Origin: Nitrososphaeraceae archaeon
Lineage (GTDB): Archaea; Thermoproteota; Nitrososphaeria; Nitrososphaerales; Nitrososphaeraceae
DNA length: 36,670 nucleotides
Direction of reading: 5' to 3'
Assembly (NCBI GenBank): GCA_009377575.1
Contig: WHTU01000032.1
Coordinates: 1 to 36,670, forward strand
The number at the start of each line of letters is the position of its first letter. Position 1 is the first letter of the stretch. Below are positions 10,101-29,168 of the stretch, piece after piece. Both the position numbers and the translations under genes were made by a program. Below the pieces are notes generated by a model, which worked only from the letters and a program-made list of their open reading frames with translations, had not been told where the DNA came from and made no database searches.

Positions 10101-10850
10101 TTAATCATTAACTAGCATCCTGCCATTGTCACTAAGCCAATTAATTTTATCCTGGTAGTTAGGCATATGCCTATAAACTAACTCCCAGTAGCGATGAGAA
10201 TGACCTTTGACCTTCAAATGACACACCTCATGGAGCACGATGTAATCTATTACATCCTGAGGAGCTTTTATCAGATGCATGTTAAAATTGATTGATCCCT
10301 TTTTTGTTAGGCTAGCCCATCGACTTTTCAAATTTCTTTTAATTAAGATTTTTTGTACATGTACTCCTAGTTTCTGTGAGTAAGTTTCAACCTTAGTTTT
10401 TAGAATAGGATAAGCAACTCTTATGATCCACTCTTCATACACTAGTTTGATCAGGGATCTGGCATCTTCTTCCATTCTAGGGCTTGAAATATCCACAATA
10501 AAATGGCCATCAGTAAAAGTGTGAGTATTTCTGGATTGATTCATGTTTACTATTAAAGGATAATTCTTTCCTAAATATGGCAAAGTAGAATTTTCTTCGA
10601 AGGTTGGTTTCATAACCTGTGGAATCAAACTCTTAAACTGGTGCTGTTTTTTAAGAATCCATTCTGCTTTATCTCGAACGATATCCCTGGTATCTTCAAT
10701 GGTCTTATTTAGAGGGGTTCTAACTTCTATTCTATCTGAATCAACAATAAGCTCAGAAGTTTTGATGCGCTTACTTTTCTTTATATAGTAATCTATATTC
10801 GTAGTTCTGTACCGTACCCGATCCTTTGATTCTTGATTATTATGAATCAT
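10101..10850 (-). CDS. YgjP-like (DUF45/M48-type) metallopeptidase
   Basis: A 249-residue predicted zinc metallopeptidase of the YgjP/DUF45 family. The zinc motif is VLHEVCHLKVKGHSHRYW near residues ~209-226, i.e. HExxH followed by a downstream His, preceded by the typical RWASLTKKGSINFN strand. The N-terminal half is beta-rich, as in the family. Its ATG overlaps the HsdR stop (ATGA), making it the last gene of the hsdM-hsdS-hsdR operon. Genes of this family are often found beside type I restriction genes; a role in processing or turnover of the complex is plausible but unproven. Confidence 0.88.
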   Translation of the reverse strand: MIHNNQESKDRVRYRTTNIDYYIKKSKRIKTSELIVDSDRIEVRTPLNKTIEDTRDIVRDKAEWILKKQHQFKSLIPQVMKPTFEENSTLPYLGKNYPLIVNMNQSRNTHTFTDGHFIVDISSPRMEEDARSLIKLVYEEWIIRVAYPILKTKVETYSQKLGVHVQKILIKRNLKSRWASLTKKGSINFNMHLIKAPQDVIDYIVLHEVCHLKVKGHSHRYWELVYRHMPNYQDKINWLSDNGRMLVND

Positions 10851-13816
10851 AGATGTAATTTGGCTAGATCGATGATCCTTTGTGTTAAAACTTCAATACT
10901 TTTATCGGGATACTTATTTTCTACGAGTATGTCATAGATATCAATACTCATTTTTTTCTCTGAACTCCTCTTTGTCTTCCAACCAATCAACTTAGCTTCC
11001 TTAATTACCTTTTTGAATATTTTTTCAGTTACATTCTTGGAAAGCTCTTGATCCTTCTTTACTGATTCCAATTCTTCATAAACAGCAAACTCAAATGGTG
11101 TAGAAAATCCCAGCTTTCTTCGTTGTTCTTTTGTATCTAATGCTTCTTTGTAGACCTTCGCATATTGGTTGAAATAATCAGCACTTTCCTTTCTACGCTT
11201 TTCTTCTTCGTCTATGATGCGTTCTAATCTTTCCCTTAGCTTTTCGTAATATACTGGATTAGTAGGAGCAAGTTCTCTAATAATTTGTCTAGCCTTATTC
11301 TTAATTAGAGCAGTTCTAGCCCTTTCTGTTTTGATTTTAGATGCATAACCCAAAAAATTATTGTACGTAACCTCTCTCTGGTCCATTATTCCCATGATTT
11401 TTAGTGACCTAACTGATTCGTCGATTAATCGTTGTACTTTTTTTCCATCTTGTCTTAGGTTCTGGCCTGGTGGATCGTAGAGGGTTCTTATCATGAATCG
11501 TCTGGCGCTCAGATATTTGAAATCTTCAACAAATGGTTCAGCTTCCCGTTTTGGAAGGACTATGTCTAACGCTTTTGAAAACATTTTGAAAGCATATTCG
11601 AATTCATCTCTAACATTGACGGGTTCAAATTTTTCTAATATTGCAGCATTGTCATTTTTGTTTACATCGTTAAAGAAAGCAATTGCTTCTCTATGCCTAT
11701 TCTTTAACTCATCTAATTCCTTTTCGGCGGGTTCCAAAACGCCCTGAATATCTTCATCCTCAAATATAGCTAAAGCCTTTTGAAGGTCTTTAGTTATCCC
11801 ACAGTAATCGACAATAAGACCATAAGTCTTTGCATTGTCATACAACCTGTTTACTCTAGCTATTGCTTGGAGCAAGGTATGCTCCTTTAGAGATTTATCG
11901 AGATACATCACTTGAACTATAGGAACATCGTATCCCACCAAAAGCATGTCGACAACAATGAGAAGTTTGGTTTCATCTTCTGGACTTTTGAATCTCTCAG
12001 CTTCATCTTCTCTTTGTTCTGGTGTGAGATAATATTCATCCCATTTTCCTCCATTTTCTCCCAGGTTCGATGTCATTATAATTTTTGATTTAGGTGCATT
12101 CAGATTATCAAGTTCTCTTTTGTAAGTAACTGCTGCTTCTCTAGAAGTAGCTACAATCATTGCCTTATAGCCATTGGGTTCGATATGTTCGGCATAGTGC
12201 TTTACTAAATCGAAGCATATTTTTTTGATTCTAGAAGGAGCTTCTGCAATTTTCTCTCTAGTTACATGCTGTTTCTTCAACTTTAGTTTGGTATCTTCAT
12301 CCAGATCTGCAAAAACCTTTTCAAAGATAGGATCGATACTACTATCATTTTCTACATATAGATCTGGCATTCTACCTTCATAAAGTATTTTAAGAGTAGC
12401 CCCATCCTCTTTTGATTCCTCGAATGAATATTTGTCAAGTAAAGGACCAAATACCCTATATGTACTCTTATTTTTCTTGTCAATAGGTGTTCCAGAAAAA
12501 GCAAAAAATACAGCATTAGGCATAGCTGCTCTCATAGCCTGAGCATTGAACTTGTATTGTGTTCTGTGTGCTTCATCCACAAGCGCAATTACTTTTTGTT
12601 CAGTTTGTATATGCTTCTCCTGAGATCCAAATTTCTGAATCGTAGTCATTATTGTTTTTCCCTTTGGATTGCTGAGAAGTTGTTGAAGATGGCTTCTACT
12701 TCTAGCAGCTATTGGATCCGGAAATCCAGAGGCCTTAAAAGTACCATGAATCTGTTCGTCGAGCTGCTTTCTATCCGTTACAATTACAATTGGAGGATTA
12801 CCAAATCTGTACATTATTTGTGTTGCAAGCCATAACATGGAAAGTGATTTTCCTGATCCTTGAGTATGCCAAATAATACCTCCTTTATCTGAAATATCCT
12901 GAGTTAAATCTAGTTTATCAATAGCCTTTGTTACTGCTCGGTATTGTTGATGCTTTGCAATTTTTTTGATCTTTCTATTGTTAACTGTTTCATAGATGAC
13001 AAAGTTTTTTAGTAGATCTAGAAGGTGTGACTTTGATAGCATGCCCGCTATTAAAATTTCCTGTTCCCTTGGCTTACGATTACACATTTTCTCAATTTCT
13101 TCTATGGATTGTGGATAGGCTTCCGACCATCTCGCATAGTGATTAACTTTAGAACCTATTGTACCATGTCTAGCAGCAATACCACATGTGGCTACCAGAA
13201 AGTGATTGAAAAACATCAGTCGTTCGTATCCCGCACCTCTACTCTGGTATCTTTCAAAGTTTTTATCTATAGCTTCTTCGATGGGAGCTCTTATGTATGG
13301 GGATTTACATTCAATTATTACTAGCGGAATTCCATTAACAAAGATCACAATATCAGGATAAATTGGCAGCTTTAGACCTTCTAGTTGAAATTGGTTTGTG
13401 ACAAGAAAATCATTATTTATCGGATTATCAAAATCAAATAATTTTACAGTTTTTTCAATATTGCCTTCGCCAAGATTCTGAGTTACTGTAATGGGTTCCA
13501 ATCCACCTGATCTTGATAACCCAACTAACTTAGCTCTAATCCTTTCATTTGTATCCATTACATCGAGAGTGCGCGGAAAGTTGGATTCATTGATTTGTGA
13601 AAAAGTATCATATACTCCGTCCTCATCTAGCTCAGGATTGATTTTCCTAATAGCAGCTTCAAGCCTATCATACAATAATACTTCTCTGTAATCTCTTCGA
13701 GCTTTATTCAATTCAGCTTGATTCTTGTACTCATAATCCATAGCTTGAAGTTGTAATATTGCTGGTTTTTCGGATTCAAAATATTCATCTTTCTCTGTAC
13801 CGCCGGAAATGCTCAT
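10847..13816 (-). CDS. hsdR: Type I restriction enzyme, R subunit
   Basis: The 989-residue motor and nuclease subunit of a type I restriction system. The N-terminal PD-(D/E)xK nuclease is seen as PDIVIFVNGIPLVIIECKS (~153-171). The SF2 helicase motor follows: Walker A HTQGSGKSLSML (~316-327), motif II LVDEAHRTQY (~411), motif III FSGTPIDK and motif VI LLQAIARVNR. The C-terminal ~250 residues form the helical region that contacts the methyltransferase core. The length is normal for HsdR and no frameshift is seen. The ATG overlaps the HsdS stop by four bases. It should cut unmodified DNA after ATP-driven translocation when bound to HsdM2HsdS. Confidence 0.97.
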   Translation of the reverse strand: MSISGGTEKDEYFESEKPAILQLQAMDYEYKNQAELNKARRDYREVLLYDRLEAAIRKINPELDEDGVYDTFSQINESNFPRTLDVMDTNERIRAKLVGLSRSGGLEPITVTQNLGEGNIEKTVKLFDFDNPINNDFLVTNQFQLEGLKLPIYPDIVIFVNGIPLVIIECKSPYIRAPIEEAIDKNFERYQSRGAGYERLMFFNHFLVATCGIAARHGTIGSKVNHYARWSEAYPQSIEEIEKMCNRKPREQEILIAGMLSKSHLLDLLKNFVIYETVNNRKIKKIAKHQQYRAVTKAIDKLDLTQDISDKGGIIWHTQGSGKSLSMLWLATQIMYRFGNPPIVIVTDRKQLDEQIHGTFKASGFPDPIAARSRSHLQQLLSNPKGKTIMTTIQKFGSQEKHIQTEQKVIALVDEAHRTQYKFNAQAMRAAMPNAVFFAFSGTPIDKKNKSTYRVFGPLLDKYSFEESKEDGATLKILYEGRMPDLYVENDSSIDPIFEKVFADLDEDTKLKLKKQHVTREKIAEAPSRIKKICFDLVKHYAEHIEPNGYKAMIVATSREAAVTYKRELDNLNAPKSKIIMTSNLGENGGKWDEYYLTPEQREDEAERFKSPEDETKLLIVVDMLLVGYDVPIVQVMYLDKSLKEHTLLQAIARVNRLYDNAKTYGLIVDYCGITKDLQKALAIFEDEDIQGVLEPAEKELDELKNRHREAIAFFNDVNKNDNAAILEKFEPVNVRDEFEYAFKMFSKALDIVLPKREAEPFVEDFKYLSARRFMIRTLYDPPGQNLRQDGKKVQRLIDESVRSLKIMGIMDQREVTYNNFLGYASKIKTERARTALIKNKARQIIRELAPTNPVYYEKLRERLERIIDEEEKRRKESADYFNQYAKVYKEALDTKEQRRKLGFSTPFEFAVYEELESVKKDQELSKNVTEKIFKKVIKEAKLIGWKTKRSSEKKMSIDIYDILVENKYPDKSIEVLTQRIIDLAKLHL

Positions 13817-15060
13817 GCTTTAACCCTCATTTTACCTGTTAGGAGGTTTTGCGCGAGTCCTTCCTTGAGAGATTCTAACTTTGCTTTACATGCAATATGG
13901 CCATTTGTATATTTATCAATATTTGATAAAATGTTAGAAATACGAAACTGTTCATCTATATCAGGGCAAGGAACAGTCATCTTTCGGATTATATCAGAAT
14001 TGATATTTGGAAAGGTTGAACCCCCACCTGAAGCTATATTATATATTCTGTTTTGAATTCGTTGAAATTGGTAGTATAACCATCTAGTATTACTCTTAGC
14101 ATGCTTTCCCCTGATTGATGCTAAACCTCGTCCGATGCAGTAGATCTGGTCAGCACGATTAAGTCTTCCAGTTGTACTTCCTCTGACACATAGTAATATA
14201 TCATCTATCTGACATAACTTTGTAGGTTTGGTTGTGAATTGCACAGGCATAGGATACTCAAGTCCAAATTCTGTTGGTCCATTCAGTAAAGGTGTTCCAA
14301 CGTGGTTTGTATTGTATGAATCCCCGGATGGTGATTGACCCATTGTTAGCTCTATAATGTTTGATAACTGAACGTCGGTTCCTTTAGTCAATAATTTCCG
14401 CATCAAACCTTTCTTAAGTCTTTGAGTTTGTTCAATGATTTGATCTGTTTTTTGGATTAGCTTATCCACCTTTGAAAGAATGGATACAATTTTTTCTTGT
14501 TCTATCAATGGCGGTTTAACTATCTTGAAGTTTGATAATTGAGTTAAACTGACATTTGGTTGTGCAGAAATAGTTTTTTCAATATTAATTTGCTTTTCAA
14601 GGATTAAACTTCTTAAAAAATATTGAAGAAATGTCCGATCATATGCTCTATCAGTTATTCTAATAATTCCTAAAGCTTGATTAACATTTGCAGGAGCTTG
14701 ATGCCTTTTTACTATGCCAACTCTACCTAGTGTGCCTGCCAATGAAAATAAAATATCGCCTTCTTTTAGATGAGATCTCAATAGTTTGTCGTGAACATCT
14801 TTGGAGATGTGATTGCAATTAGTAAGATCTAAATTACCCAATTCGTCAATATTTTCCACTCTAAAGAATGGAATTCCTTCTTTTACATAGTCATATCCTT
14901 CTGTAGATGGAGTAGTTCCCTTTGTAATATGTTCTGAAATAGATCCAACTGTAACGATCTGCCAGCTATCTGGAATTAGCGAAAATACTATATTACTATG
15001 TGCATTTAATCTAAAGGGTTTGTATCCTTGATTCGGTTTTTGTAGTTCTTGCGTTATCAA
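13813..15060 (-). CDS. hsdS: Type I restriction system specificity subunit
   Basis: A 415-residue specificity subunit with two target-recognition domains (~25-190 and ~225-385), each followed by a conserved helical spacer (QEKIVSILSKVDKLIQKTD near 187-205; EQFRISNILSNIDKYTNGHI near the C-terminus). Signature turns include IPFFRVENIDELG in the first domain and TPLLNGPTEF and GGSTFPNINSDIIRKM in the second. The two domains set the two halves of the recognition sequence, which cannot be read from the protein by eye. It starts at TTG within the TGA of hsdM (TTGA) and ends in an ATGA overlap with hsdR. Both domains look intact. Confidence 0.95.
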   Translation of the reverse strand: MITQELQKPNQGYKPFRLNAHSNIVFSLIPDSWQIVTVGSISEHITKGTTPSTEGYDYVKEGIPFFRVENIDELGNLDLTNCNHISKDVHDKLLRSHLKEGDILFSLAGTLGRVGIVKRHQAPANVNQALGIIRITDRAYDRTFLQYFLRSLILEKQINIEKTISAQPNVSLTQLSNFKIVKPPLIEQEKIVSILSKVDKLIQKTDQIIEQTQRLKKGLMRKLLTKGTDVQLSNIIELTMGQSPSGDSYNTNHVGTPLLNGPTEFGLEYPMPVQFTTKPTKLCQIDDILLCVRGSTTGRLNRADQIYCIGRGLASIRGKHAKSNTRWLYYQFQRIQNRIYNIASGGGSTFPNINSDIIRKMTVPCPDIDEQFRISNILSNIDKYTNGHIACKAKLESLKEGLAQNLLTGKMRVKA

Positions 15061-16595
15061 ACTCTGAATCCTAATTCCTTCAGATTTTTATTTATCTGAA
15101 CTTTTATCTCCTTCCTTTCGTTTTCTAGTTCTTTCAAATCATTAATCGTAGCTTGAATATCAATTTCTTCCTCGGCTTCAAAAATATCCACATATCTTGG
15201 AACATTCAGATTAAAACTATTCTCTGTTAACTCATTAATTTCTGCGATATGGCAAAATCTATCAATATCTTCATATTTCCTAAATGCAAAAACAATTTTG
15301 GCAATATCTTCTTCTCTAAGCTTATTTCGCATCTTCCCTTCCTCATAATCGCTGGCTGCATGAATGAAGATTATTTTGTTCTTATGCTTAGCAGGTTTAT
15401 TCCTGTTTAGGATTAAAACACAACCTAGAATTCCAGTGCCATAGAATAGCTTCGGAGGAAGAGCAACGATTCCTTCTATAATATCTTCATTTATCATACG
15501 CTTTCGTATATTTTCCTCTTCATTACCTCTAAACAGAACCCCTTGTGAACATATGATAGCCGCTTGTCCTTTGTTATTAAGGCTTGCAAACATATGTTGA
15601 ATAAAAGCAAAATCAGCTTTATCTTGTGACGGAGGAATTCCAAATCTAAATCTATTGTATGGATCTCTTGCCGAATTTTTATTATCCCAGTCCATGCTGA
15701 AGGGAAAATTGGCTAATACTCTGTCGTAGGTGATGAGCTTTCCGCCGTCGACTAATTTGGGATTGACGATTGAATCTCCGTATTCGATCCTGAAATCTTC
15801 AATGCCATGTAGAACCATATTCATCTTACACATACCAATTGTACCATAGTTGATGTCCTGACCTTCTAACACCAGATTTCTAGGGTTTCCTCCGTATTTT
15901 GAAATATACTTCACGGATTCGATAAGCATGCCGCCTGAACCGCAGGTTGGATCACATATCCTCATGCCTTCTTTTGGTTCAACTAGATTTACAAGCAGCC
16001 TTACGACTTCCTTAGGAGTAAAGAAATTACCTCCAGACTTCTTTGTTTCGTCTGCGAACTGTTCTAAAAGGTACTCAAACGCATCTCCAAAGATATCAGT
16101 ACTTTCTAAATCTTCATTACGTAACCGTGGAGAGTTAAAATGTGAAACTAGTCTACGTAATTTATCATCTGGATATTTTCTCTTATCATTGTACCTGGTG
16201 TTTGTAAGAACACCCTCTAGCTCCCGGTTTTCGTCCTCGACAATTCGGCATACCCTATCGATTGTTTCTCCTATATTTTCACCTGTACTGGCAAGAACAG
16301 ACCATCTAGCTTCTTTCGGAACAAAGAATGTATGTCTATTCTTATTCTCGTAAGCTTCTAGCTCCGTCTTCCCTTCATTGATCAAAGCCTCAGCATTTTC
16401 CTCGAACCTGTCATTCAATCTCTTCAGGAATAGCAAAGACATTATCGGTTGCCTATAGTCACCTGGATCCAACGAACCCCTTAGTATGTCTGCAGCGCTC
16501 CATAGGTGTGATTTTAGAATATTAAACGTAATTTTCTGGTTAAAAACCGTATAATTGACTGGTTTAGAATCTTTTTGTTCCCTTTTCTTTGCCAA
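15057..16595 (-). CDS. hsdM: Type I restriction system DNA methyltransferase
   Basis: The 512-residue N6-adenine methyltransferase subunit. An N-terminal HsdM_N helical domain (~20-150, SHLWSAADILRGSLDPGDYR) precedes the SAM-binding motif I DPTCGSGGML (~213-222). The catalytic motif IV reads NFPFS (~295-299) rather than the more common NPPF, a variant that some type I enzymes also have. The C-terminus is a coiled helix (ELENERKEIKVQINKNL). The listed start is TTG 16595; no ATG or GTG lies upstream in frame, although the frame is open back to ~16653 through two extra copies of a 24-base unit. It is the first gene of a coupled hsdM-hsdS-hsdR-metallopeptidase operon. Confidence 0.96.
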   Translation of the reverse strand: MAKKREQKDSKPVNYTVFNQKITFNILKSHLWSAADILRGSLDPGDYRQPIMSLLFLKRLNDRFEENAEALINEGKTELEAYENKNRHTFFVPKEARWSVLASTGENIGETIDRVCRIVEDENRELEGVLTNTRYNDKRKYPDDKLRRLVSHFNSPRLRNEDLESTDIFGDAFEYLLEQFADETKKSGGNFFTPKEVVRLLVNLVEPKEGMRICDPTCGSGGMLIESVKYISKYGGNPRNLVLEGQDINYGTIGMCKMNMVLHGIEDFRIEYGDSIVNPKLVDGGKLITYDRVLANFPFSMDWDNKNSARDPYNRFRFGIPPSQDKADFAFIQHMFASLNNKGQAAIICSQGVLFRGNEEENIRKRMINEDIIEGIVALPPKLFYGTGILGCVLILNRNKPAKHKNKIIFIHAASDYEEGKMRNKLREEDIAKIVFAFRKYEDIDRFCHIAEINELTENSFNLNVPRYVDIFEAEEEIDIQATINDLKELENERKEIKVQINKNLKELGFRV

Positions 16596-16643
16596 TTTCT
16601 GTTTTCTTTTTTTGGCAAATTTCCGTTTTCTTTTTTTGGCTAA
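16572..16643. repeat. Three 24-bp tandem units at the hsdM start
   Basis: Units at 16620-16643 and 16596-16619 are nearly identical, and a more diverged unit at 16572-16595 begins the annotated hsdM gene. Read on the minus strand they encode LAKKRKRK, FAKKRKQK and LAKKREQK in one frame, each opening with TTA, TTT or TTG plus GCC/GCA. Only the last unit opens with a usable start codon (TTG). Loss or gain of whole units keeps the frame. Confidence 0.85.
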
Positions 16644-16795
16644 CCTACTTCACTTATCCTCAGATAGAACTTCTTACGAATGGCTTATGCTTTAAATTTT
16701 TCTTGTATTTTGTTCATCTTTTATATATGACAATAGATTTGGACTTTTATTTTTATAGTCTTAATTCTCCATTTATAATGTTCAAGCTAGAGATG

Positions 16796-19700
16796 CTACT
16801 TGAACCGTCTTCGAGAATACTCATAGAACTCATCCAGAGTGTAAGGCTTCGAAGAATTACCAACACGTACATAGCATTCTTGTTGCTTTCCACCTTCATC
16901 ATATATGAAAATAGGTCTTGAAGAGGGTTCAATCACCACCTCACAAATTTCCTTTTCTTCTATAGGATGAAATTTAATTTTGAGGTATTCGTTCGCAGCT
17001 TTATTCTTTGTATACTTCTCTATTGATTGTCTAAGTTCTATTTCGAAGCCATCAGTGTTCTGCTTTTTCAGTGTTCCGTAGTCATATTGTAATCCGACCG
17101 GGTTGCCCTCGTCATCCACACCAATAAATAAAGTACCTCCTTCTGCATTCATGAAGGCGGCAACTGTTTTTGCAATTATCTTTTCTAAGACCTTTGGGTT
17201 TGGATTTCCAATCTTGATATCGTACCTAAAAGAAGATTTCCGTTCTATGCTACAGCTTTCCCGCTCTTTGATTCTTTCGATAATAAGTCTTTGAGGGTTT
17301 GCTGTCGTATCAGCAATTTTTCCAGTAGCTAAAAGTGAAGGTATATCAAAGACGGCCGTTGTAGTCCTAATCTTCCTTAACTCTTCAATCTTCTCCCTTA
17401 ATCGTATAATCTCCTTGTTAGAATCTTTCCACCAGTTCCTACTCCAGATCTGTTCTACGTTCCATCCTTTGCTCTCAAGAAATTCCTGCCTTGTTATATC
17501 ACGTTCCTTTGTACTTTCTGCTGATTGAAAGGATTTACCATCACATTCTATAGCTAGGATATACTTGGAAGCAAAATCCGGATGGACTACCGCTAAATCG
17601 ATCTTATAATTTGAGTGTCCAATATGAAGATCTACTTGGTATCCTAGTTTTTCTAATTCTATCTTAACTAATTTCTGCAATGAATCATCCTCTTCTGTTC
17701 CCGATACTGCAGTCCAGCTAGGTCGGATAAAGTGTAAAGAGGAAAGTATATCCTGCGTTTCTTGGGGGTTAGATTCGCTAATCGATCTTGCATAACATAG
17801 ATATTCTTTCAATCTTTTTGGTCCTCCATGCATGGCTTTATCAACTCTAATTTTATACGGATCAAAAGAGCAAACTATGATTATTTCTTGTTTAGCCCGA
17901 GCTATAGCTACGTTAAGATAATTTTCACCATCCACACCATTTATTGATCCAAAATGCACACTAAATGTATCCTTGGGATCTGAGAGATCTTTTGCATAAC
18001 CTAGGGAAAAAATAATTATATCACGTTCTTCGCCTTGAACCCTTTCGATATTCCTCACAAAGGGCAGATCACGGATAGCGTAAGTACTCTGATCATCTGT
18101 TGCAGAATATAATGCTTTAAATTCTTGATCATTCTGTTTTCTTCTCTCTATCTCTTCCCAAATTTCTTCCTTCTGGAGAGAGTTAAAAGTAATGATGCCA
18201 ACTGAACGATTTCTACCAGTTTTTTTATTCTCACAGAGAATGGCTTTGAGCTGATTCACAACTAGCTCGGCTTCAGCTTTATTTCTCCTGTCAATCCATG
18301 ATCCATTATTGCATGAAATCCATTTTATTGAAGGAATCAAAGGCTTCGAAACATTTGGTGCAATCTTTAAGGATCCATCATAAAATGCATGGTTTGAAAA
18401 ATCTATTAGTTCTTGGTGAACAGATCGATAATGCCAAGTGAGGTAGCTGTGGTTAAATGTCCTATTTGCCAAAGCAAGCAAACTTTCTGAGAGTAGCTCA
18501 CGGTCGTCTTCCTCACTTAGTATTTCTTCATCATCATCTTTACTTCTAAAATGGGCAATAGGCGGAAGCTGCTTTTCATCACCTATTATTACTACCTTTT
18601 TACCTCTATACAATGCAGCCAGAGATTGTGCAACATGTGATTGACTTGCTTCATCAAATATTATATAATCAAAGATATTCTGTTTGAGAGGAAAAATGGA
18701 AGATACTGCTGATGGTGTGGCTAACCAGCAAGGTGCAATCCTTAATACCATATTTTCGTATATTTCCAATAATTTTTTTATAGGTAATACATGTCTTCTT
18801 TTCTTCAGCTCATCTAAGAGCAATGACCATTTATTGTGTTGTGCTTTGTACAAACCATTCGCTTTTAACGTAATATCTGGTCTAATTACAGATTCATTGA
18901 TTTGGTAAAGTATCTTGTCAACTACAATCTTTCTATGTTCCTTTAACAATTCAGACAATTGTTCCCGATTAGATAGGTATGTTTCAAATGGCTGTCCTTT
19001 CAGATCAGGGTGTTTGCTTTCAACAAGGTCTATCCAATGAGCATAAAACTCTTGCCTTAGTTCTTCCTTCCAATCTAATTCAAACGACAATTTGTCCATA
19101 CATTGACGTAAAATTTCTTGCTCCGGAGTAGATAATTCAGCTTTTCTTCTATCATGGGCTTGTAATTCATCAAAGTCATTGATAGTATCCTGTATCTTGT
19201 TCAGTCTTGAATAAATGGAATCATGCAAGTGTTTAGATAATTCATTTTTCAATTCCTTTACACCATCTTCAGTTAAGAAAGATAAGAAATCATTAAAGTC
19301 ATTCCAAAATTGTAGACCTAATTCTGCACTTCGTATGGCTTCTTTAATCTGTTGTATGTCATCGGGCAGTCTAAGATACCTTTTTACTATCTCTCGCGCA
19401 TTGCGTTCCTTCCCTCCAGAGATAAACTTTCGAAACAGATTTCCTCCTGGGCTACTGTTTGAAAGGGTTTCAAGTGAAACAATGAGGCTTTGTTGGTTGG
19501 CAATGCTATCTGCTAGTACGATCTGTTTTTCCCTCAAATCAAGTATATTATTAACAATTTTTAAAAGTGTATTTTTTTCAGTTAGACCGAAATTGGAAAA
19601 ATCTTTTCTATAAAACCAGGGAGAATGGGCAAGATCAAATTTTTTACATCCATCTTCTAACCTTGCTATTTTGCCCGATAGATAGGATAAGGTATGATAC

Positions 19701-21298
19701 TTTACTTCTTGTACTATATGTCTTAAACTTAGTTTAGTAATGTAATCAGGTCTTGCCAAGGTATAGAGTTTTGTAACTGGCACTCCTACAAGGCTTTCAT
19801 CTCTCAGTGCATCTGCAATCCTTTTTTGTCGTTCAATTATTCTATCAATTTCACAAGAACAATTATTGAATTCTTGGTTGATTTTGGTAGCATTGCCAGA
19901 GGGAGCTTTATAGTCAAGAATATTAGCAAGTTTCTTGTAGAGGGAAAAACGATCCTTGCCATCATACAATGGTGCGATGTATCTCGATAGTCCTATTCTG
20001 TCAAGACGTTGATAAACTACATCTAGTGCATCACGCTTTTCGCAAACAAGAAGAACCTTCTCATCTTTGGCTAAAGCATTGGAAATTATGTTAACAATTA
20101 CTTGGGATTTTCCTGTGCCTGGAGGACCTCTTACTACAATACATTCGCAAGACATAGAAGCTAATACAACGGTGTCTTGGCTTGCATCGCTTGCTATGGT
20201 AGAGTTAAGTCTTGTGGTAGGAAAATCATCTAGACTTATACTCTCAGACTTCTCGTCTTGATTACTTACAGGTTCCGAAAGGCTTACGTCAATTGACTTG
20301 TCATCTGAAAGCAATTTTTCTATTATGCCGAAACTCTCATTACTGGATTCTTTCACTTTATTAATCAGGTCCTCATAGTCAGAATATATCGCATCTTCAC
20401 CTTGTGGGAATATACCTATTATTTTATGATTCACAAGTTGGAGTGGTTCATGTTTGATCCATGTTTGTCTATCATCAGTACTAACCATTCCTCCAGAAAC
20501 GTTAATCTTGCTCAGAGCTTCCACTTTGTTTAACTTATAGTTATTATTAATAATGAATTCATTTTTACTTAAGATGTTGACTAGCCCATCTAAAAATAAC
20601 AGTTCTAAACTCTTGGATCCACCTTCTTGTTCTTCAATTTTATCAAGTAAGTTTTCAAAGTCATTATAAAAGAGAGGTGATAGAGTTCTGCCACTCTCAA
20701 CCCTGATTTTTTCCATTAAAGCTCGATTTAATATTGGATCCTTATCCTCTGTAAAAATAATATACCAGCCACCCGGTCGAGCGTTTTCTTTATAGTCAAG
20801 GGATACTGGAAAAAGGATTAGAGGCCCTCTAACATAGGATTGTCTATCAAAATGACCAACTAAGAAAGGAAAACCTAAATAATTTTCTTGACGACCTGTT
20901 TCTCGCTGAATCTGTATGATATTCCGATATAGTTTTCTTAGCTTTGCCCTTTGCTTTTCAGCTTGTTGAGATCTATCAGAATTGGGCACAATACAAATGT
21001 GCTTTCTGTCAGACAGGGCATGATCAATGATTTTCTTGTCTGTGTCTATTCCAGATAAGTCAAAACACCACAGATCACGGATCCCTCTCAATATAATAGA
21101 ACGGTTTGCAGAATCAATTTTTAGAAGTCGATTCTGATAGTATTCTAACTTTCTAGATAAAACTTGATGCTGCTCATGTACTGGGATATTTGAAACCTTT
21201 GATGTTTGCACAGATATATTAGAATCTGTATCTGATCCGACCAATGTCATGTCAATCATTCTTCCACAGTTAGAACAAAATCTAGACTTGTCAGACAA
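16796..21298 (-). CDS. DUF4011-like SF1 helicase with Vsr-like nuclease and AlbA_2 domains
   Basis: A ~1500-residue multidomain defence-type protein. An N-terminal zinc knuckle (FCSNCG) is followed by a DUF4011-like region (~45-330), then an SF1 helicase split by a long helical insert: Walker A GPPGTGKS (~390), motif II FDEAS (~883), motif III GDEKQLPP, motif V VQGEERD (~1085) and motif VI NVAIARAK (~1130). A Vsr/DUF559-like nuclease follows at ~1215-1315 (KIDLAV, then AIECDGKSF, then QEFLESKGWNVEQIWSRNWW). Last is an AlbA_2 (Schlafen-type) domain at ~1340-1500 (IERKSSFRYD, AAFMNAEGGTLFIGVDDEG). DUF4011-helicase-Vsr proteins are known defence genes (Hhe type); the C-terminal AlbA_2 is unusual. 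TTG 21298 is the only canonical start, but the frame is open to 21367 and the upstream part encodes SCTYCG, the first half of the zinc ribbon. Confidence 0.88.
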   Translation of the reverse strand: MSDKSRFCSNCGRMIDMTLVGSDTDSNISVQTSKVSNIPVHEQHQVLSRKLEYYQNRLLKIDSANRSIILRGIRDLWCFDLSGIDTDKKIIDHALSDRKHICIVPNSDRSQQAEKQRAKLRKLYRNIIQIQRETGRQENYLGFPFLVGHFDRQSYVRGPLILFPVSLDYKENARPGGWYIIFTEDKDPILNRALMEKIRVESGRTLSPLFYNDFENLLDKIEEQEGGSKSLELLFLDGLVNILSKNEFIINNNYKLNKVEALSKINVSGGMVSTDDRQTWIKHEPLQLVNHKIIGIFPQGEDAIYSDYEDLINKVKESSNESFGIIEKLLSDDKSIDVSLSEPVSNQDEKSESISLDDFPTTRLNSTIASDASQDTVVLASMSCECIVVRGPPGTGKSQVIVNIISNALAKDEKVLLVCEKRDALDVVYQRLDRIGLSRYIAPLYDGKDRFSLYKKLANILDYKAPSGNATKINQEFNNCSCEIDRIIERQKRIADALRDESLVGVPVTKLYTLARPDYITKLSLRHIVQEVKYHTLSYLSGKIARLEDGCKKFDLAHSPWFYRKDFSNFGLTEKNTLLKIVNNILDLREKQIVLADSIANQQSLIVSLETLSNSSPGGNLFRKFISGGKERNAREIVKRYLRLPDDIQQIKEAIRSAELGLQFWNDFNDFLSFLTEDGVKELKNELSKHLHDSIYSRLNKIQDTINDFDELQAHDRRKAELSTPEQEILRQCMDKLSFELDWKEELRQEFYAHWIDLVESKHPDLKGQPFETYLSNREQLSELLKEHRKIVVDKILYQINESVIRPDITLKANGLYKAQHNKWSLLLDELKKRRHVLPIKKLLEIYENMVLRIAPCWLATPSAVSSIFPLKQNIFDYIIFDEASQSHVAQSLAALYRGKKVVIIGDEKQLPPIAHFRSKDDDEEILSEEDDRELLSESLLALANRTFNHSYLTWHYRSVHQELIDFSNHAFYDGSLKIAPNVSKPLIPSIKWISCNNGSWIDRRNKAEAELVVNQLKAILCENKKTGRNRSVGIITFNSLQKEEIWEEIERRKQNDQEFKALYSATDDQSTYAIRDLPFVRNIERVQGEERDIIIFSLGYAKDLSDPKDTFSVHFGSINGVDGENYLNVAIARAKQEIIIVCSFDPYKIRVDKAMHGGPKRLKEYLCYARSISESNPQETQDILSSLHFIRPSWTAVSGTEEDDSLQKLVKIELEKLGYQVDLHIGHSNYKIDLAVVHPDFASKYILAIECDGKSFQSAESTKERDITRQEFLESKGWNVEQIWSRNWWKDSNKEIIRLREKIEELRKIRTTTAVFDIPSLLATGKIADTTANPQRLIIERIKERESCSIERKSSFRYDIKIGNPNPKVLEKIIAKTVAAFMNAEGGTLFIGVDDEGNPVGLQYDYGTLKKQNTDGFEIELRQSIEKYTKNKAANEYLKIKFHPIEEKEICEVVIEPSSRPIFIYDEGGKQQECYVRVGNSSKPYTLDEFYEYSRRRFK

Positions 21299-21476
21299 AT
21301 TATACCCACAGTAGGTACATGAAAACAGATCTATCGAGAATGATAAGCAGCAACTAGCATTTAAGTATTAATTAGATTCCAGATTTTACATTATGATAGT
21401 ATGTAGTTTGTATATTTTCTTGTGAACTAATTCTAAGTTAAGAAAAATTAATTACATATCCTTGACTTAATCATTT

Positions 21477-22418
21477 ATGGAAACTTGTGCAGGGTGCGGT
21501 TTTGACCTAGAAGGAGCCGAGAAGTTCTGTCCTTCATGTGGAAATTCTGTTTCTGCTGACAACTCTCTTGACGAGATTATTTTAGATGTAGCCCTCCCCA
21601 TCAGGTTAAGATATGAAGAAGCCATCAAAACTAATATCGAAAACCAGTCAGTGATAAGAGTGTCAGGGGCAAGTCTTGACTTTTATCCTTACTATGTCTT
21701 TGAGTATAAAATAGATATTTCTAAAAATGATCCTTCAGGTAAAAAACACAATCTTCAGAACCAAGACGTAGTTATTGTTGATGCTTTCAATGGTGAATTA
21801 TTATCTGACAAGAAAAGAACCAAATTTGTGAACAATCTCAATCCTTTTCTTTCGAAGAAGAATGTGGATTTAGTACCTAGTGGAATCGCTGGAAGAAACC
21901 AAATCATTATTGATTTAAGAAATATAGAACATATAAGAAATCTTAAATTACAGTTAACAGGGGATTATGCGATTAACCTTATTGATAATAAGGTATCATT
22001 GATAGCTGTTGAAAAGGCTGTTTTGAGAGATATTATTTCAAACAATACGATGGAGATTTCTTACAAGAAAAAAAAGGCTAAAGGCAAGACGGAGGAACAA
22101 AAAATGCGTGTTATTCCTAGACGTCACGAGGTAGAAATCCTGATAAAATCTGTTGTCTATGTTCCTATATGGGTAATAAATATGAAGGCCGGAGATTTTA
22201 ACTATAAGCGCGAGGCCTTAGCAGCATCTAGCACCATTCTTACAGATGAAATTGCATCATGCCCAAAACATTCTTCCATCGCAAGAGTATGGAAGAAACC
22301 AAAGCAGACTGCCGCACTATGCGAAACATGTGGTGGAGCATTTTGCAATGGCCATATCTTTAAAATCAATCAAACGTACTATTGTAAAGAGCACCTACCA
22401 AATACGCCATTACGATAG
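21477..22418 (+). CDS. Zinc-ribbon and LIM-like zinc-finger protein
   Basis: A 313-residue protein with zinc sites at both ends. The N-terminal ribbon is CAGCGFDLEGAEKFCPSCG (~4-22). The C-terminal site combines CPKHSS, CETCGGAFCNGHIF and YYCKEH (~260-308), resembling a LIM or B-box-like knuckle. The middle (~40-255) is beta-rich; it contains YPYYVFEYKIDI and VVIVDAFNGEL, a pattern seen in archaeal proteins that also carry membrane or ribbon parts, and a basic stretch KKKKAKGKTEEQK. It is transcribed divergently from the helicase-nuclease gene across a 178-base shared promoter region, and its ribbon resembles the helicase's own N-terminus. Interaction or co-regulation is inferred. The exact family is not recognised. 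Confidence 0.75.
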   Translation: METCAGCGFDLEGAEKFCPSCGNSVSADNSLDEIILDVALPIRLRYEEAIKTNIENQSVIRVSGASLDFYPYYVFEYKIDISKNDPSGKKHNLQNQDVVIVDAFNGELLSDKKRTKFVNNLNPFLSKKNVDLVPSGIAGRNQIIIDLRNIEHIRNLKLQLTGDYAINLIDNKVSLIAVEKAVLRDIISNNTMEISYKKKKAKGKTEEQKMRVIPRRHEVEILIKSVVYVPIWVINMKAGDFNYKREALAASSTILTDEIASCPKHSSIARVWKKPKQTAALCETCGGAFCNGHIFKINQTYYCKEHLPNTPLR

Positions 22419-24457: not shown

Positions 24458-25399
24458 ATGATCCCTACGCGATTATCCGAATGGAATTACGAAATAATAA
24501 AGGAATTAGTAGAAAAGGGGTATTTGGAGGCTGATACCTTTGAATTCAAGCGTGAAATAAAGAGTAGAAATCCTAAATTGAATGATAGAATTGTTGAAAC
24601 AGCTTGTGCCTTCGCGAACACTGTAGGAGGATTCATAATATTTGGAATTGATGATCTAGGCAATAGTAAGAAAGACAGAATAATTGGTCTTCAAGAATCG
24701 GATGATTTATCGAAGGAATTTGGAGATAAAATGAAGTCAATTAATCCAACCCCCTATTATGACTTTGTAAATCCTCCGATCAAAATCCAGGAAAAAGATA
24801 CGGTATTATTTGTTACCTACATTCCTCAAAGTAGCGCTCGTCCACATATGAAATCGGATGTGGGCAGATTTTATTATAGAACTAATAAGGGCAATGAAAT
24901 AATGAATTATCAGCAAGTCATGGAAGCTTTTTTACATTATGAAGAAAGGAGAAGTAAACTAAACTTACTATATATTGAATTACTCAGTAATTCTATTATA
25001 GCAAGTGAAATTCTGCGCATTTCAAATAAACAATTAGATGAAGCTGCCAATGGAAAGGAAAGATATCTGCCCTATTCCCCTTTAAAATTTGAATTGACAA
25101 TAACTAGCACATTGCTACCTGAAGTATATAGCATAATACAAAATGACCGTGAATTGACACAATCATTATTTAGGTTGAAATTACAGCTCAGTACGATAAA
25201 TTCAGAAATTAGCATATATCATTCCCTAGATCCTGAACGCAAGGAATTTCAGTATGATACTCACAACGAATACATAAGAGAATGCATCGATGAATATTCA
25301 TTACCTTTGATGAATAATATAATGAAAACATTAGAATTGAAATATGGATTGGCTAATCCTTTTTCTGATTCACAATTTGAAATCTTCAAGAAGATATAA
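24458..25399 (+). CDS. AlbA_2 (Schlafen-type) domain protein
   Basis: A 313-residue protein with an N-terminal AlbA_2 domain (~15-165): the FEFKREIKSRN strand with the acidic-basic pair, then VETACAFANTVGGFIIFGIDD, a DKMKSINPTPYYDF segment, and GRFYYRTNKGNEIMNYQQ. This is the core that Schlafen proteins and many microbial ATP-binding or regulatory proteins share; in some Schlafens it cleaves tRNA or rRNA. The C-terminal half is helical with no known motif. The AlbA_2 domain resembles, but is not nearly identical to, the C-terminus of the large helicase protein 3 kb away. A defence or regulatory role is inferred from context. Confidence 0.8.
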   Translation: MIPTRLSEWNYEIIKELVEKGYLEADTFEFKREIKSRNPKLNDRIVETACAFANTVGGFIIFGIDDLGNSKKDRIIGLQESDDLSKEFGDKMKSINPTPYYDFVNPPIKIQEKDTVLFVTYIPQSSARPHMKSDVGRFYYRTNKGNEIMNYQQVMEAFLHYEERRSKLNLLYIELLSNSIIASEILRISNKQLDEAANGKERYLPYSPLKFELTITSTLLPEVYSIIQNDRELTQSLFRLKLQLSTINSEISIYHSLDPERKEFQYDTHNEYIRECIDEYSLPLMNNIMKTLELKYGLANPFSDSQFEIFKKI

Positions 25400-25729: not shown

Positions 25730-28048
25730 TTAGCATTCAATAATTGATTCCATTTCTTTCACATCTTTAACCCATTTTATTAATTCAATATTCTTCCAAA
25801 TGGTTTTCCGTTCTTCGCCTGTCGTTTCTCTTCCATCCACAATCCCCTGTTTTTTTATCAGTTTTCCGAATGATTCCTTACGTTCAATAGGCAAACCATA
25901 AAAGCTACAAAATCGAGTGTACGCTTCATACATTTGATCTTTAGTTACATAGTGGGAATGTGTTGGATTCTGAGCTAGAGCATCCCTAATAAATGAAGCA
26001 ACTGAATTGATCATAATATCATGTCGATTTCTTCTTTGCTGGATCGTTTGATGCCTGATTTGTATTCTTCTAGTCCGAAGTATCCTTCTGAGCGCAACCA
26101 TTAATACGTTAAATATTCCGGATAGCTCTTCCTCTGAGGTTAGTTTATTTTGCAGATTTGTATCCGCATTTTCATTTTCAAACTGGTTGGGAAACGCAAT
26201 CGCAATCTCACGCCTAAACCTTGCATCTGAATCATCATCAGTTATTGGCAGCTTATTAGCATTAAAGAAAAGCTTCGTATGCAATATTGTATCATACGCC
26301 CTCTGGTTCTTTCTTTCGATGCGAGTGGGAAGACTTCCAGTTAACCTCTTGAGGATGGAGATATCATTGATGAACCCCGTTGATAGTTCAGTATCTATAT
26401 TAATATCTTTATTTTCCAAGTCAGAAAGAGCAAATCGATCCTTAATCAATGAATGCAGAGGAACATTGCTGATGTTCTTGAACCCATGCAAACCGACAAG
26501 TATGGAGGTAAAAACGCTTTTTCCATTCGCCCCGGTTCCAATGAGTATTACATAGATCTCGTGCGGATTAGATCTTAGAAGTGTATAAGCCATCAACTCG
26601 ACAGCAGTTCTTATTTCGTCAGGATACAACGTTTCGTTCAGAAATTTCCCAAAAAGCTTTGGCTTGGCCTTTGGATCATACACTATCGGTTTTTGATTAA
26701 GTGAAATGTATTGAGGAGTATGGGATTGAAGCTTACCGGTTCTAATATTGTACAAACCATTTTTCACGTTTATAATATTTTCATCCTTGTCATATGCATT
26801 GTGTCTGACATAAGTGTTCCTCATAATATGGCCAATAACTTCCTGAATGTGTACGTTCCTTAATTGATATCCATACATATGTTCGAGCTCCTTTTCTACT
26901 ATTATTTGGCCACCTGAAACATAGACACCGTTATCATAGTACAAAATTTCTTGAGATGCTTCATCCGTAATTGGATGAAATTTCTGCATAATTGATTCAC
27001 TTGCCTCTTCTATATTGATTGGTCTAGATAAAAGTTGTATATGACGCGAAGACTTAAGACATTGTTCATCAATCCTTTCCTTTGCAAATTTCAAAGCACT
27101 ATTCCAAATACTCATTATCTCCTCCTGAGATAACGGAAGTGGTTTACATAAAGAAGAATTTATTTGCAATAAGTAGCTTCTTAAATCATACTCTGACTTT
27201 TTACCTATATATCGGAATAGAATGGAATTAGCAATTGAAATAAGGATTGAGTGTCTGTTTCCTTCTTCTAATTGGATATTACGGTCGATGACAAATGACT
27301 TGAGCATGATTTTGATTTTATCAGATAAGAGGCTGGTTCTCTCTAGATATCGAATACCATGTCTTCGACATATCTGGTCTATGTGTTGTATGAATTCCAT
27401 AGCTTGAATCATATTTAGAGTAACAGGTTCAAGCGTTCCGATAATTTCATATCGATGTCCATTTTTATGTTCAGATGGGCAAGATACAACGTTTCCGTCT
27501 TTACCCGAGCTTTTGACTTCAATCCCAGTGACTTGGTCAGGTGTCTTACGAGGAAATCGTACTGGTGAATAAAAGGAAATATGCGCTCGGTTTAAGTTAT
27601 CCTTGTGTTGTTCCACAAGAAATTTTTCTGATATTCGACGAAGTGAAATTGTCTTTCCAGTTCTTGTACCAAGTTCCTCTATTGCAACAGATGTATCGGC
27701 ATCGATTGACACGAAAAATAGTTGTTTTTTGTCCTCTCTATGCCAAACTCGACCGGGAATAAAGGCCAAGCCATTAGTGAACAAGCCTTTTGATTTCCAT
27801 TCGTCAAACTGAGCTTCAGATACAGGTTTATCTTGCCATGGCTTCCATCGTACAAGTGGTTTTTTCTTGCGGCTATCGACCGGGATTACATTTATGCCGA
27901 TGCAATGCCGCCAAAAATCAGCCCAGGCATCATGGTAATCTTTCCCCTCAACTAAGGTTGAAGCAAAGGGTTTTTCCTCAATACTGTAATTTTGGATTAA
28001 AATATGAAGTCGACGTAAGTACTCTGTTGGCTCGTGAGTAGGTAACAT
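25730..28048 (-). CDS. Primase-polymerase/SF3 helicase (D5/P4 type)
   Basis: Replication protein of an integrated plasmid or virus. From ATG 28048 it has ~772 residues; the frame is open to a TTG at 28102, adding 18. The N-terminal part resembles the bifunctional primase-polymerase domain (GINVIPVDSRKKKPLVRW, FFVSIDADTS). A linker and a D5_N-like region follow. The SF3 helicase core has Walker A GTGANGKSV (~507), Walker B-type DINIDTEL, and the sensor region LFFNANKLPITDDDSDARFRR. The C-terminus looks like a winged-helix DNA-binding tail (YEAYTRFCSFYGLP). It lies last in a minus-strand series after a ribbon-helix-helix gene and a small zinc protein, with the putative origin just beyond its 3' end. 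Confidence 0.9.
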   Translation of the reverse strand: MLPTHEPTEYLRRLHILIQNYSIEEKPFASTLVEGKDYHDAWADFWRHCIGINVIPVDSRKKKPLVRWKPWQDKPVSEAQFDEWKSKGLFTNGLAFIPGRVWHREDKKQLFFVSIDADTSVAIEELGTRTGKTISLRRISEKFLVEQHKDNLNRAHISFYSPVRFPRKTPDQVTGIEVKSSGKDGNVVSCPSEHKNGHRYEIIGTLEPVTLNMIQAMEFIQHIDQICRRHGIRYLERTSLLSDKIKIMLKSFVIDRNIQLEEGNRHSILISIANSILFRYIGKKSEYDLRSYLLQINSSLCKPLPLSQEEIMSIWNSALKFAKERIDEQCLKSSRHIQLLSRPINIEEASESIMQKFHPITDEASQEILYYDNGVYVSGGQIIVEKELEHMYGYQLRNVHIQEVIGHIMRNTYVRHNAYDKDENIINVKNGLYNIRTGKLQSHTPQYISLNQKPIVYDPKAKPKLFGKFLNETLYPDEIRTAVELMAYTLLRSNPHEIYVILIGTGANGKSVFTSILVGLHGFKNISNVPLHSLIKDRFALSDLENKDINIDTELSTGFINDISILKRLTGSLPTRIERKNQRAYDTILHTKLFFNANKLPITDDDSDARFRREIAIAFPNQFENENADTNLQNKLTSEEELSGIFNVLMVALRRILRTRRIQIRHQTIQQRRNRHDIMINSVASFIRDALAQNPTHSHYVTKDQMYEAYTRFCSFYGLPIERKESFGKLIKKQGIVDGRETTGEERKTIWKNIELIKWVKDVKEMESIIEC

Positions 28049-28155
28049 TTTAGTTCTTTGCAAAGGGTGAGTATGCGGATGAGATATAAATGGGTGCGTC
28101 AATGATTGGATCTACTTCCTTGCTGAAACAAAAGGTCTTAATATAATGCTCACAT

Positions 28156-28422
28156 TTAATACTGGTAATCATCCTGAAAATCTCCGTTGGGATGAATAGA
28201 AATGGGGCTGGTCCTGATCTTCTCAATCTGTCTAGCTCCTTTTCTCTGATGGCATTCACAATTGCAGATTATTTGTAAATGAACTTTATCAACTGAAGGT
28301 CGGTAAATCCCGGTGCATTCTTGACACTTTTGTGTAAGGCATCTCCTTACGGATGTTGTTGCATTAACCTTGTATTGATCATGTAGAAGGTTGTTATCGA
28401 GGGATACACACACTTTGTCCAT
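28156..28422 (-). CDS. Small Cys/His-rich element protein
   Basis: An 88-residue protein with clustered metal ligands: CLTQKCQECTG (~28-38) and IICNCECHQRK (~51-61), with an intervening basic region. A zinc-binding knuckle is likely. It starts at ATG 28422, five bases after the end of the ribbon-helix-helix gene, and precedes the helicase gene, so the three should be co-transcribed. The overlapping open frame 28050-28259 is a shadow. The function is unknown. Confidence 0.65.
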   Translation of the reverse strand: MDKVCVSLDNNLLHDQYKVNATTSVRRCLTQKCQECTGIYRPSVDKVHLQIICNCECHQRKGARQIEKIRTSPISIHPNGDFQDDYQY

Positions 28423-28427
28423 CTATC

Positions 28428-28616
28428 CTAATCAACTCGATCCGTAGATTTTTTAAGTGAGGGTATAGAATTTGGCACGCTAATATTTACTGGATTTTCA
28501 TTGATCATGTTCAAAAGGTTAGTAATTACATCGTTAGAAGTATCACCAGCTCTTCCGTAATTTTTCAAGATATCTCGGTTTTTTCGAGATATCGAGATTG
28601 TTGTTCTTTCAATCAT
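28428..28616 (-). CDS. Small ribbon-helix-helix regulator
   Basis: A 62-residue protein. Residues ~4-10 (RTTISIS) form the beta strand, followed by a KNRDILKNYG helix, the GDTSND turn and a VITNLLNMI helix. This is the pattern of short archaeal RHH proteins of the DUF7557/VapB-like type. It is the first gene of the helicase operon and is the likely copy-number or expression regulator. A single inverted copy of the CTA-TTAATACATT-TAG motif lies 21-41 bases before its ATG. Confidence 0.75.
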   Translation of the reverse strand: MIERTTISISRKNRDILKNYGRAGDTSNDVITNLLNMINENPVNISVPNSIPSLKKSTDRVD

Positions 28617-28636
28617 CGCTATAGTTTTTATGAGGT

Positions 28637-28657
28637 CTATAAAATGTATTAATTTAG
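28637..28657 (-). promoter_or_regulatory. Putative operator before the helicase operon
   Basis: Read on the minus strand: CTA-AA-TTAATACATT-TTA-TAG, followed by ACC. This is the third copy of the motif found twice upstream of the RHH gene at 23157-23384. It lies in the 53-base space between the divergent genes starting at 28616 and 28670, so it could control both. Confidence 0.5.
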
Positions 28658-28669
28658 ATACCTACACGT

Positions 28670-29134
28670 ATGGTTATTCTAGTATGCCCTCGGTGCAAAA
28701 AACCTGGATTCCTTTCGCAAAGGAAGGTCTATGCATACTATGTTCCTAAACAATATAGCGAAATTTGTGAATCATATGAAAATGCATTAACAATATTAAA
28801 GAGAAATCCCGACAGAAAGGAAGATATTATCCTTGTAGGATACCCAGAAAAACCCTCGACAATTAGACGTATCAAGCTTAAAGATCATGTAAAAGATATG
28901 CAGAAGGCAATTTCGGGAACTAGATATGCAAATGAAGGATACGGAAATACACCTTACAGAATCCGCAAAACGTATTTTCATTCCTATATTGGACACTATG
29001 ATCGTGAAAAGTACAAGAAACAAAAGGAACGTTATAAAGCAGGTACGATAAGCTATCGACCAAATGGACGAAGGTGGTGTAAGATGAGGTCTAAGGATCA
29101 ATTAAAGATATATTTTAAAACCCAAAAAAAATAA
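28670..29134 (+). CDS. Basic zinc-knuckle protein
   Basis: A 154-residue, strongly basic protein. The N-terminus carries one zinc knuckle (CPRCKKPGF, ~6-14), and a CESYEN Cys lies near residue 33. The rest is Lys/Tyr/Arg-rich (FHSYIGHYDREKYKKQKERY). One C-terminal Cys (RRWCKMRSK) may add to metal binding. It is divergent from the RHH-helicase operon and convergent with the integrase gene, with 34 bases between stops. A nucleic-acid-binding element protein is the best reading; the family is not recognised. Confidence 0.65.
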   Translation: MVILVCPRCKKPGFLSQRKVYAYYVPKQYSEICESYENALTILKRNPDRKEDIILVGYPEKPSTIRRIKLKDHVKDMQKAISGTRYANEGYGNTPYRIRKTYFHSYIGHYDREKYKKQKERYKAGTISYRPNGRRWCKMRSKDQLKIYFKTQKK

Positions 29135-29168
29135 GCCCTAATATTATTAATAAGGATGAATATTCAGC

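Follow-up and report, generated by a model that had tools for sequence, protein, structure and literature searches.

A DUF4011 helicase-nuclease ending in a Schlafen-type AlbA_2 domain in a Nitrososphaeraceae archaeon, and AlbA_2 tails on other restriction enzymes

The window analyzed here is a stretch of 36,670 nucleotides from a Nitrososphaeraceae archaeon (assembly GCA_009377575.1, contig WHTU01000032.1), and the gene under study is a large reverse-strand gene that lies between a type I restriction-modification operon and an integrated element (Table 1). The first-pass annotation of this DNA had placed the gene beside such an operon and a mobile element, and this description of the site holds, as hsdM, hsdS and hsdR are all present and the element has both an integrase and a P4-type primase. 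However, the location does not amount to a conserved association between this gene and type I operons, a possibility that we rejected because an hsdM-like gene flanks only 3 of 80 relatives (relatives fetched by nuclease motifs, with flanks of up to 6 kb). The gene for a YgjP-like metallopeptidase overlaps the end of hsdR as if it were part of the type I operon. The integrated element (25730-30626) encodes a P4-type primase-helicase (DUF5906/D5_N/Prim-Pol) as well as a tyrosine integrase that carries a zinc ribbon at its C-terminus, and within the window it shows neither a flanking tRNA nor an obvious att repeat. There is also a stand-alone AlbA_2 protein, whose gene lies close to the element's primase and some 3 kb upstream of the fusion.

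Table 1. Features of the locus in window coordinates
Feature	Position	Strand	Remarks
Whole gene, DUF4011 - SF1 helicase - MTES_1575 - SLFN_AlbA_2	16796..21298	-	1500 aa
Double zinc ribbon CTYCGYNLSDKSRFCSNCGR	21260..21319	-	first CxxC 5' of first ATG/GTG/TTG
DUF4011	20708..20968	-	Pfam, residues 111-197, E 7e-9
SF1 helicase, AAA_19/AAA_11 ... AAA_12	17867..20185	-	residues 372-1144
MTES_1575 Vsr-like nuclease	17363..17713	-	residues 1196-1312
SLFN_AlbA_2 (PF04326)	16841..17260	-	residues 1347-1486
hsdM, type I methyltransferase	15057..16595	-	separate module
hsdS, type I specificity subunit	13813..15060	-	
hsdR, type I restriction subunit without AlbA_2	10847..13816	-	
YgjP-like metallopeptidase	10101..10850	-	operon end
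Stand-alone AlbA_2 protein	24458..25399	+	313 aa, domain residues 24-150

The gene is a single unbroken frame of 1523 codons from stop to stop, its length in Table 1 being counted from the first canonical start, a TTG at 21298. A span of 16796-21367 had been proposed earlier, and while the frame does run on to 21367, the first canonical start is at 21298. The true start is probably upstream of this position, at a non-canonical codon near 21326, since the first half of an N-terminal double zinc ribbon (CTYCG...CSNCG), a feature absent from the earlier list of domains, falls 5' of the first ATG, GTG or TTG and is also present in a relative. Specifically, a 46%-identical relative (L002) begins with the homologous zinc ribbon CTNCGQQIPDKANFCPTCG. 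From the N-terminus to the C-terminus the protein contains the zinc ribbon, DUF4011, a complete SF1 helicase, a Vsr-like MTES_1575 nuclease and SLFN_AlbA_2. The first-pass annotation had read the last four of these in one frame, and it was right to do so, as the matches to all four Pfam families (DUF4011, AAA helicase, MTES_1575 and SLFN_AlbA_2) exceed their curated gathering scores; the case that it had allowed for, in which no significant AlbA_2 or nuclease match would appear, did not arise.

The DUF4011 match is divergent and spans the C-terminal half of the model. In the helicase, a long insert separates Walker A from motif II, the best AAA_11 stretch covers residues 818-914 (E 9e-19) and AAA_12 covers residues 943-1144 (E 5e-20), with the motifs GPPGTGK (391), DEAS (882), GDEKQLPP (906), VQGEE (1087) and NVAIARAK (1129) all intact. 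The protein thus has the DUF4011 region, the complete SF1 motifs and the terminal Vsr-like domain that characterize the DUF4011 helicase-nuclease group. Its nearest named families are the ProA and Hhe helicases, beside PDC-S37, a phage-defense candidate of one gene, to which it matches in three stretches with an E value of 2.8e-172 as judged by PADLOC profile match alone. The scores against the curated models are lower than their cut-offs, with 572.1 bits against 1500 for the anti-phage protein ProA (NF058533) and 403.8 bits against 2000 for Hhe (NF042953). The earlier assignment as a defense gene of the Hhe type is consequently retained only in its broader form: an Hhe identity is rejected on a score so far under the cut-off, and what the profile matches support is a place in the PDC-S37/ProA/Hhe group, whose members are candidate or named antiphage helicases. 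The PDC-S37 and ProA proteins share the order of helicase and MTES_1575 with the window protein across most of its length, but their matches stop at about residue 1318, ahead of AlbA_2. The Hhe proteins likewise combine DUF4011, an SF1 helicase and a Vsr-like nuclease, yet they are approximately 1800-1900 amino acids long and nothing in them matches the AlbA_2 tail. The window protein is probably a large antivirus protein, with the defensive role of its family resting on annotation. Archaeal relatives that do not have the tail (G027, L002/L129, and G057, which is L044, from Nitrososphaera sp. WS208) are 46-49% identical to it from the zinc ribbon through MTES_1575. One of these (L129:857-15398) lies amid genes for an SMC-like ATPase, a nuclease-like protein, an AAA ATPase and a UvrD-like helicase and may be part of a multi-gene defense locus.

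The nuclease had been described as Vsr/DUF559-like, of which the Vsr part is well supported and the DUF559 part is not, as MTES_1575 is matched over residues 1211-1304 with an E value of 3.5e-27 (94.7 bits against a gathering score of 38.2) while the DUF559 match is weak (E 0.004). Structure prediction, in which MTES_1575 and the tail were folded as separate domains, gave a nuclease model (pLDDT 85) with I-Bth0305I as its closest fold match (E 3.5e-4), a Vsr-like homing endonuclease of the EDxHD class (PMC3943268). Prediction had been suggested earlier as a check of both active sites; it supports a Schlafen fold for the tail and a Vsr-like fold for the nuclease. From the conserved polar set E, D, E, D, H, D and R the window nuclease retains D1234, E1251, D1253 and D1267, whereas a glutamine occupies each of the conserved positions E1208, H1258 and R1283. 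All three residues are intact in a tail-less archaeal relative that stops 10 residues past MTES_1575.

Among full-length relatives E1208 and R1283 are each conserved in 65 of 65 and H1258 in 63 of 65, in a set that is biased to intact nucleases because it was fetched partly via MTES_1575 motifs. The patterns used for scanning the genome collections were confined to MTES_1575 and came from a mixed alignment in which two rows were hybrids joined from separate loci. Given the possible motif bias, the count was repeated on 74 further nuclease domains, most of which were found through the helicase. In this second set E1208 is present in 68 of 74 with no glutamine at this position, arginine or lysine occupies position 1283 in all 74, and H1258 is present in 59 of 74. 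Thus, E1208Q and R1283Q are unique to the window protein among the 65 and 74 domains, and H1258Q is rare. The window protein departs from 5 of 29 near-invariant columns in the nuclease versus 5 of 95 in the helicase, a borderline excess (Fisher p 0.053) that is suggestive but not decisive. The domain does not appear to be decaying freely, as its core acidic residues are kept and it is 56% identical to that of G027 versus 46% for the whole protein. From its sequence, we read MTES_1575 as an impaired or altered DNase rather than a proven dead one.

The tail matches SLFN_AlbA_2 over model positions 1-117 of 118 (E 6.7e-19, 69.0 bits against a gathering score of 25.3) with residues E1347, E1352, K1354 and D1396 intact. 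Residues E1347, E1352 and D1396 align with the E205/E210/D248 triad of SLFN13 (Glu-x4-Glu ... Asp), mutation of which diminishes or abolishes tRNA cleavage (PMC5862951), and the equivalent residues of SAMD9L are required for its translation block and for HIV restriction (PMC11221667). A profile search against solved structures returned SLFN11, SLFN14, SLFN12, the SLFN13 N-domain (deposited as Schlafen 8) and SLFN5 with E values of 1e-8 to 1e-15. The AlphaFold2 model of the tail (pLDDT 91) in turn matches the fold of the SAMD9 tRNase domain and of the C-lobe of SLFN5, 11, 12, 13 and 14 (E 1e-4 to 1e-6), with 9o0d, 7ksp, 5yd0 and 7lre among its PDB matches. Alignment and model together support the assignment of the tail as a Schlafen-fold domain with an intact catalytic triad, and RNase activity is predicted on this basis. 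The triad is not itself proof of an RNase, as SLFN5 and mouse SLFN1 retain the two key glutamates and still left the tRNAs offered to them uncut (PMC5862951). The acidic triad is common to most of the tails that we examined, including tails on four unrelated proteins, and the E-E-K signature is also found in AlbA_2 proteins outside of restriction contexts (L042).

The four-part order looks private to the window protein across the genomes, plasmids, phages and virus contigs that were searched, and the abundant, already characterized family of the same order that the first-pass annotation had allowed for was not encountered there. None of the approximately 90 relatives examined to their C-terminus carries AlbA_2; they end at or near MTES_1575, a majority within 20 residues after it, or in other tails. 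In 350 genomes of the same class, AlbA_2 follows none of the MTES_1575 matches that lie in a long helicase frame. Similarly, in 593 genomes from two other phyla none of well over 100 helicase or helicase-nuclease matches extends into AlbA_2, with the AlbA_2 matches of those genomes residing in other proteins. No place in 72,556 plasmid records covers 80% of an MTES_1575-AlbA_2 query, and the fusion is absent from the virus contigs and from the phages, which gave only one nuclease match. With the fusion present in one sequence only, independent conservation of the architecture is lacking. Only 10 of 101 relatives gave any match, just 3 of these matching the helicase body at length. Members of the same genus contain decayed remnants of a helicase gene and of AlbA_2 (G003:C142 and G001:C778), the latter a decayed copy of the same AlbA_2, indicating that the module turns over rapidly.

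The closest relative of the tail is 72% identical over 169 residues and comes from a different species within the genus (G001:C16, L124), where it forms the C-terminus of a type I HsdR. That frame consists of a T1RH-like_C end followed by SLFN_AlbA_2, and as the main HsdR body is in a separate frame just upstream, the gene is either broken or mis-assembled. DNA similarity between the two loci begins at about residue 1341 and breaks off at the stop codon, the mark of a clean domain exchange. Comparison of these two intact tails gave a pN of 0.145 and a saturated pS of 0.774, indicative of purifying selection on the tail. Two candidate donors within the window were rejected: the neighboring hsdR has no AlbA_2, its product being only 33% identical to the L124 HsdR, and the stand-alone AlbA_2 protein shows no more than remote similarity to the tail (E 3e-4).

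The next relatives of the tail are C-terminal tails of GmrSD, HsdR and HsdS. GmrSD-AlbA_2 proteins (L126, L127, L132, L133, L202, L204 and L207) occur in two archaea of the same class, on a Sinorhizobium plasmid and one of Haloquadratum, and in genomes from the two other phyla searched; HsdR-AlbA_2 occurs at L203, L205 and L206 in addition to L124. An HsdS-like specificity domain with a C-terminal AlbA_2 is encoded by a 427-aa open frame in the same genus (L125:7749-9029, reverse strand). Like the window protein, the GmrSD and HsdR fusions are restriction enzymes that end in SLFN_AlbA_2; they differ in that their body is a type IV GmrSD or a type I HsdR, in which the DNase motifs are intact where inspected (PD...ELK in HsdR; DGQQR and HHxFP in GmrSD, with DHIFP in L132 and with L207 cut at its N-terminus). 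Other AlbA_2 relatives are stand-alone, DUF2196-linked or located after TPR repeats. The tails on GmrSD, HsdR and HsdS mark AlbA_2 as a recurrent add-on to restriction enzymes, which has evidently been joined to at least four unrelated restriction bodies, the window protein being the fourth. This more general result was unforeseen in the first-pass annotation. One GmrSD fusion from a genome of the same order has the arrangement EVE - GmrSD - AlbA_2 (L126:3775-6504, reverse strand, 910 aa), so that one polypeptide joins a possible modified-base reader to a type IV nuclease and to a Schlafen tail.

The earlier idea of a two-effector fusion survives in part: the tail has an intact triad and fold, but with three conserved residues lost from the nuclease the fusion is not a symmetrical one at the sequence level. 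This imbalance suggests that the effector has been partly switched from DNA to RNA. Our preferred reading, to which we give a probability of roughly 0.4, is that the protein forms by itself an antivirus system of the DUF4011-helicase-MTES_1575 kind, with an output that has been widened from DNA to RNA and may largely have shifted to the latter. As inferred from its family, the zinc ribbon, DUF4011 and the SF1 motor would recognize and translocate on invading DNA, while MTES_1575, which is predicted still to fold but has a probably eroded active site, may bind or weakly cut DNA. Engagement of DNA would then free or pair the C-terminal AlbA_2 domains, allowing the E1347/E1352/D1396 site to cleave tRNA or another structured RNA and halt translation, an outcome that would protect the population. 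The sequences show that the tail itself was acquired as an exact domain from a pool of AlbA_2 tails on other restriction enzymes of the lineage. More tentatively, AlbA_2 could serve as a plug-in RNase module, joined time after time as a precise C-terminal unit to no fewer than four unrelated kinds of DNA-restriction machinery (HsdR, HsdS, GmrSD and the DUF4011 helicase-nuclease) to give DNA-triggered translation shutdown. The swap would then have gone furthest here, where the DNase site appears eroded.

The intact DNase motifs of the HsdR and GmrSD fusions make the general rule look like the addition of a second effector, and the window nuclease has itself retained its core acidic residues. 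Both nucleases may accordingly work, with the DNase as main effector and AlbA_2 as a standby RNase that comes free once DNA restriction has been blocked or overwhelmed, in effect a covalent version of PrrC-EcoprrI; the coupled restriction of DNA and tRNA is cited in PMC12851939 as an established phenomenon. Against this stand the loss of E1208, H1258 and R1283 in the window protein and the fact that no AlbA_2 tail is known to be released in response to an inhibitor of restriction-modification, and we regard this arrangement as doubtful. A tail that only binds nucleic acid or dimerizes, anchoring or clustering the restriction enzyme on DNA or RNA, would be consistent with the SAMD9 AlbA_2 structure, which was crystallized with DNA (7ksp), with the behavior of SLFN5 on the tested tRNAs (PMC5862951) and with the occurrence of AlbA_2 in many non-defense architectures. 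However, the full acidic triad is kept across tails on four unrelated proteins, which goes beyond the needs of binding, and the SAMD9L triad is required for its translation block and antiviral effect (PMC11221667), making a purely binding tail unlikely.

The single occurrence of the fusion, the distribution of the genome over 380 contigs and the decayed remnants in the same genus would also fit an assembly chimera, or a recent, non-selected fusion with no function as a unit. This explanation is quite improbable given the long intact frame, the strong purifying selection seen when the tail is compared with that of HsdR, a tail GC content close to that of the rest of the gene and a genome that holds no second copy of this AlbA_2 available for mis-joining. 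Least probable of all is a cellular helicase of DNA repair or RNA surveillance, for while the SF1 core does resemble IGHMBP2/UPF1, the distribution of the gene is patchy, its location is between a restriction-modification operon and an integrated element, and its best family matches are antiphage models.

The components of the window protein are already known, as are bacterial Schlafens in phage defense, for which PMC12839542 cites a 2025 preprint; Schlafen RNases are also listed there as backup effectors of BREX. In the literature covered by our search, we found no report of AlbA_2 joined to DUF4011 helicases, GmrSD or type I subunits. The fold and the E-E-D triad of the tail are common to the Schlafens (SLFN11, 12, 13 and 14) and to the tRNase domain of SAMD9 and SAMD9L, but the SLFN core is two-lobed whereas the tail is a single AlbA_2 lobe that ends a DNA helicase-nuclease. 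Human SLFN11 likewise joins an RNase to an SF1-type helicase, with a helicase unlike that of the window protein and its domains in the reverse order. There is a further likeness to PrrC-EcoprrI in the coupling of an RNase effector to a restriction enzyme. PrrC, however, is an ABC-ATPase/HEPN protein in its own right that binds to a type Ic complex, whereas the Schlafen domain of the window protein is covalently attached. How bacterial Schlafens are activated is a central question, and these fusions carry the putative activator physically attached, drawn from well-understood families of DNA recognition, so that a link between foreign DNA and RNase becomes directly testable. The same tail on unrelated restriction enzymes suggests a recurrent coupling of DNA attack to the shutdown of protein synthesis.

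Two smaller features flank the gene. A tandem repeat of approximately 24 bp (16590-16650, reverse strand) lies at the start of hsdM and would encode a lysine/arginine-rich N-terminus if translated from upstream. The divergent neighbor on the other side (21477-22418, forward strand), which otherwise has no Pfam match above cut-off, begins with a similar N-terminal zinc ribbon (CAGCG...CPSCG).
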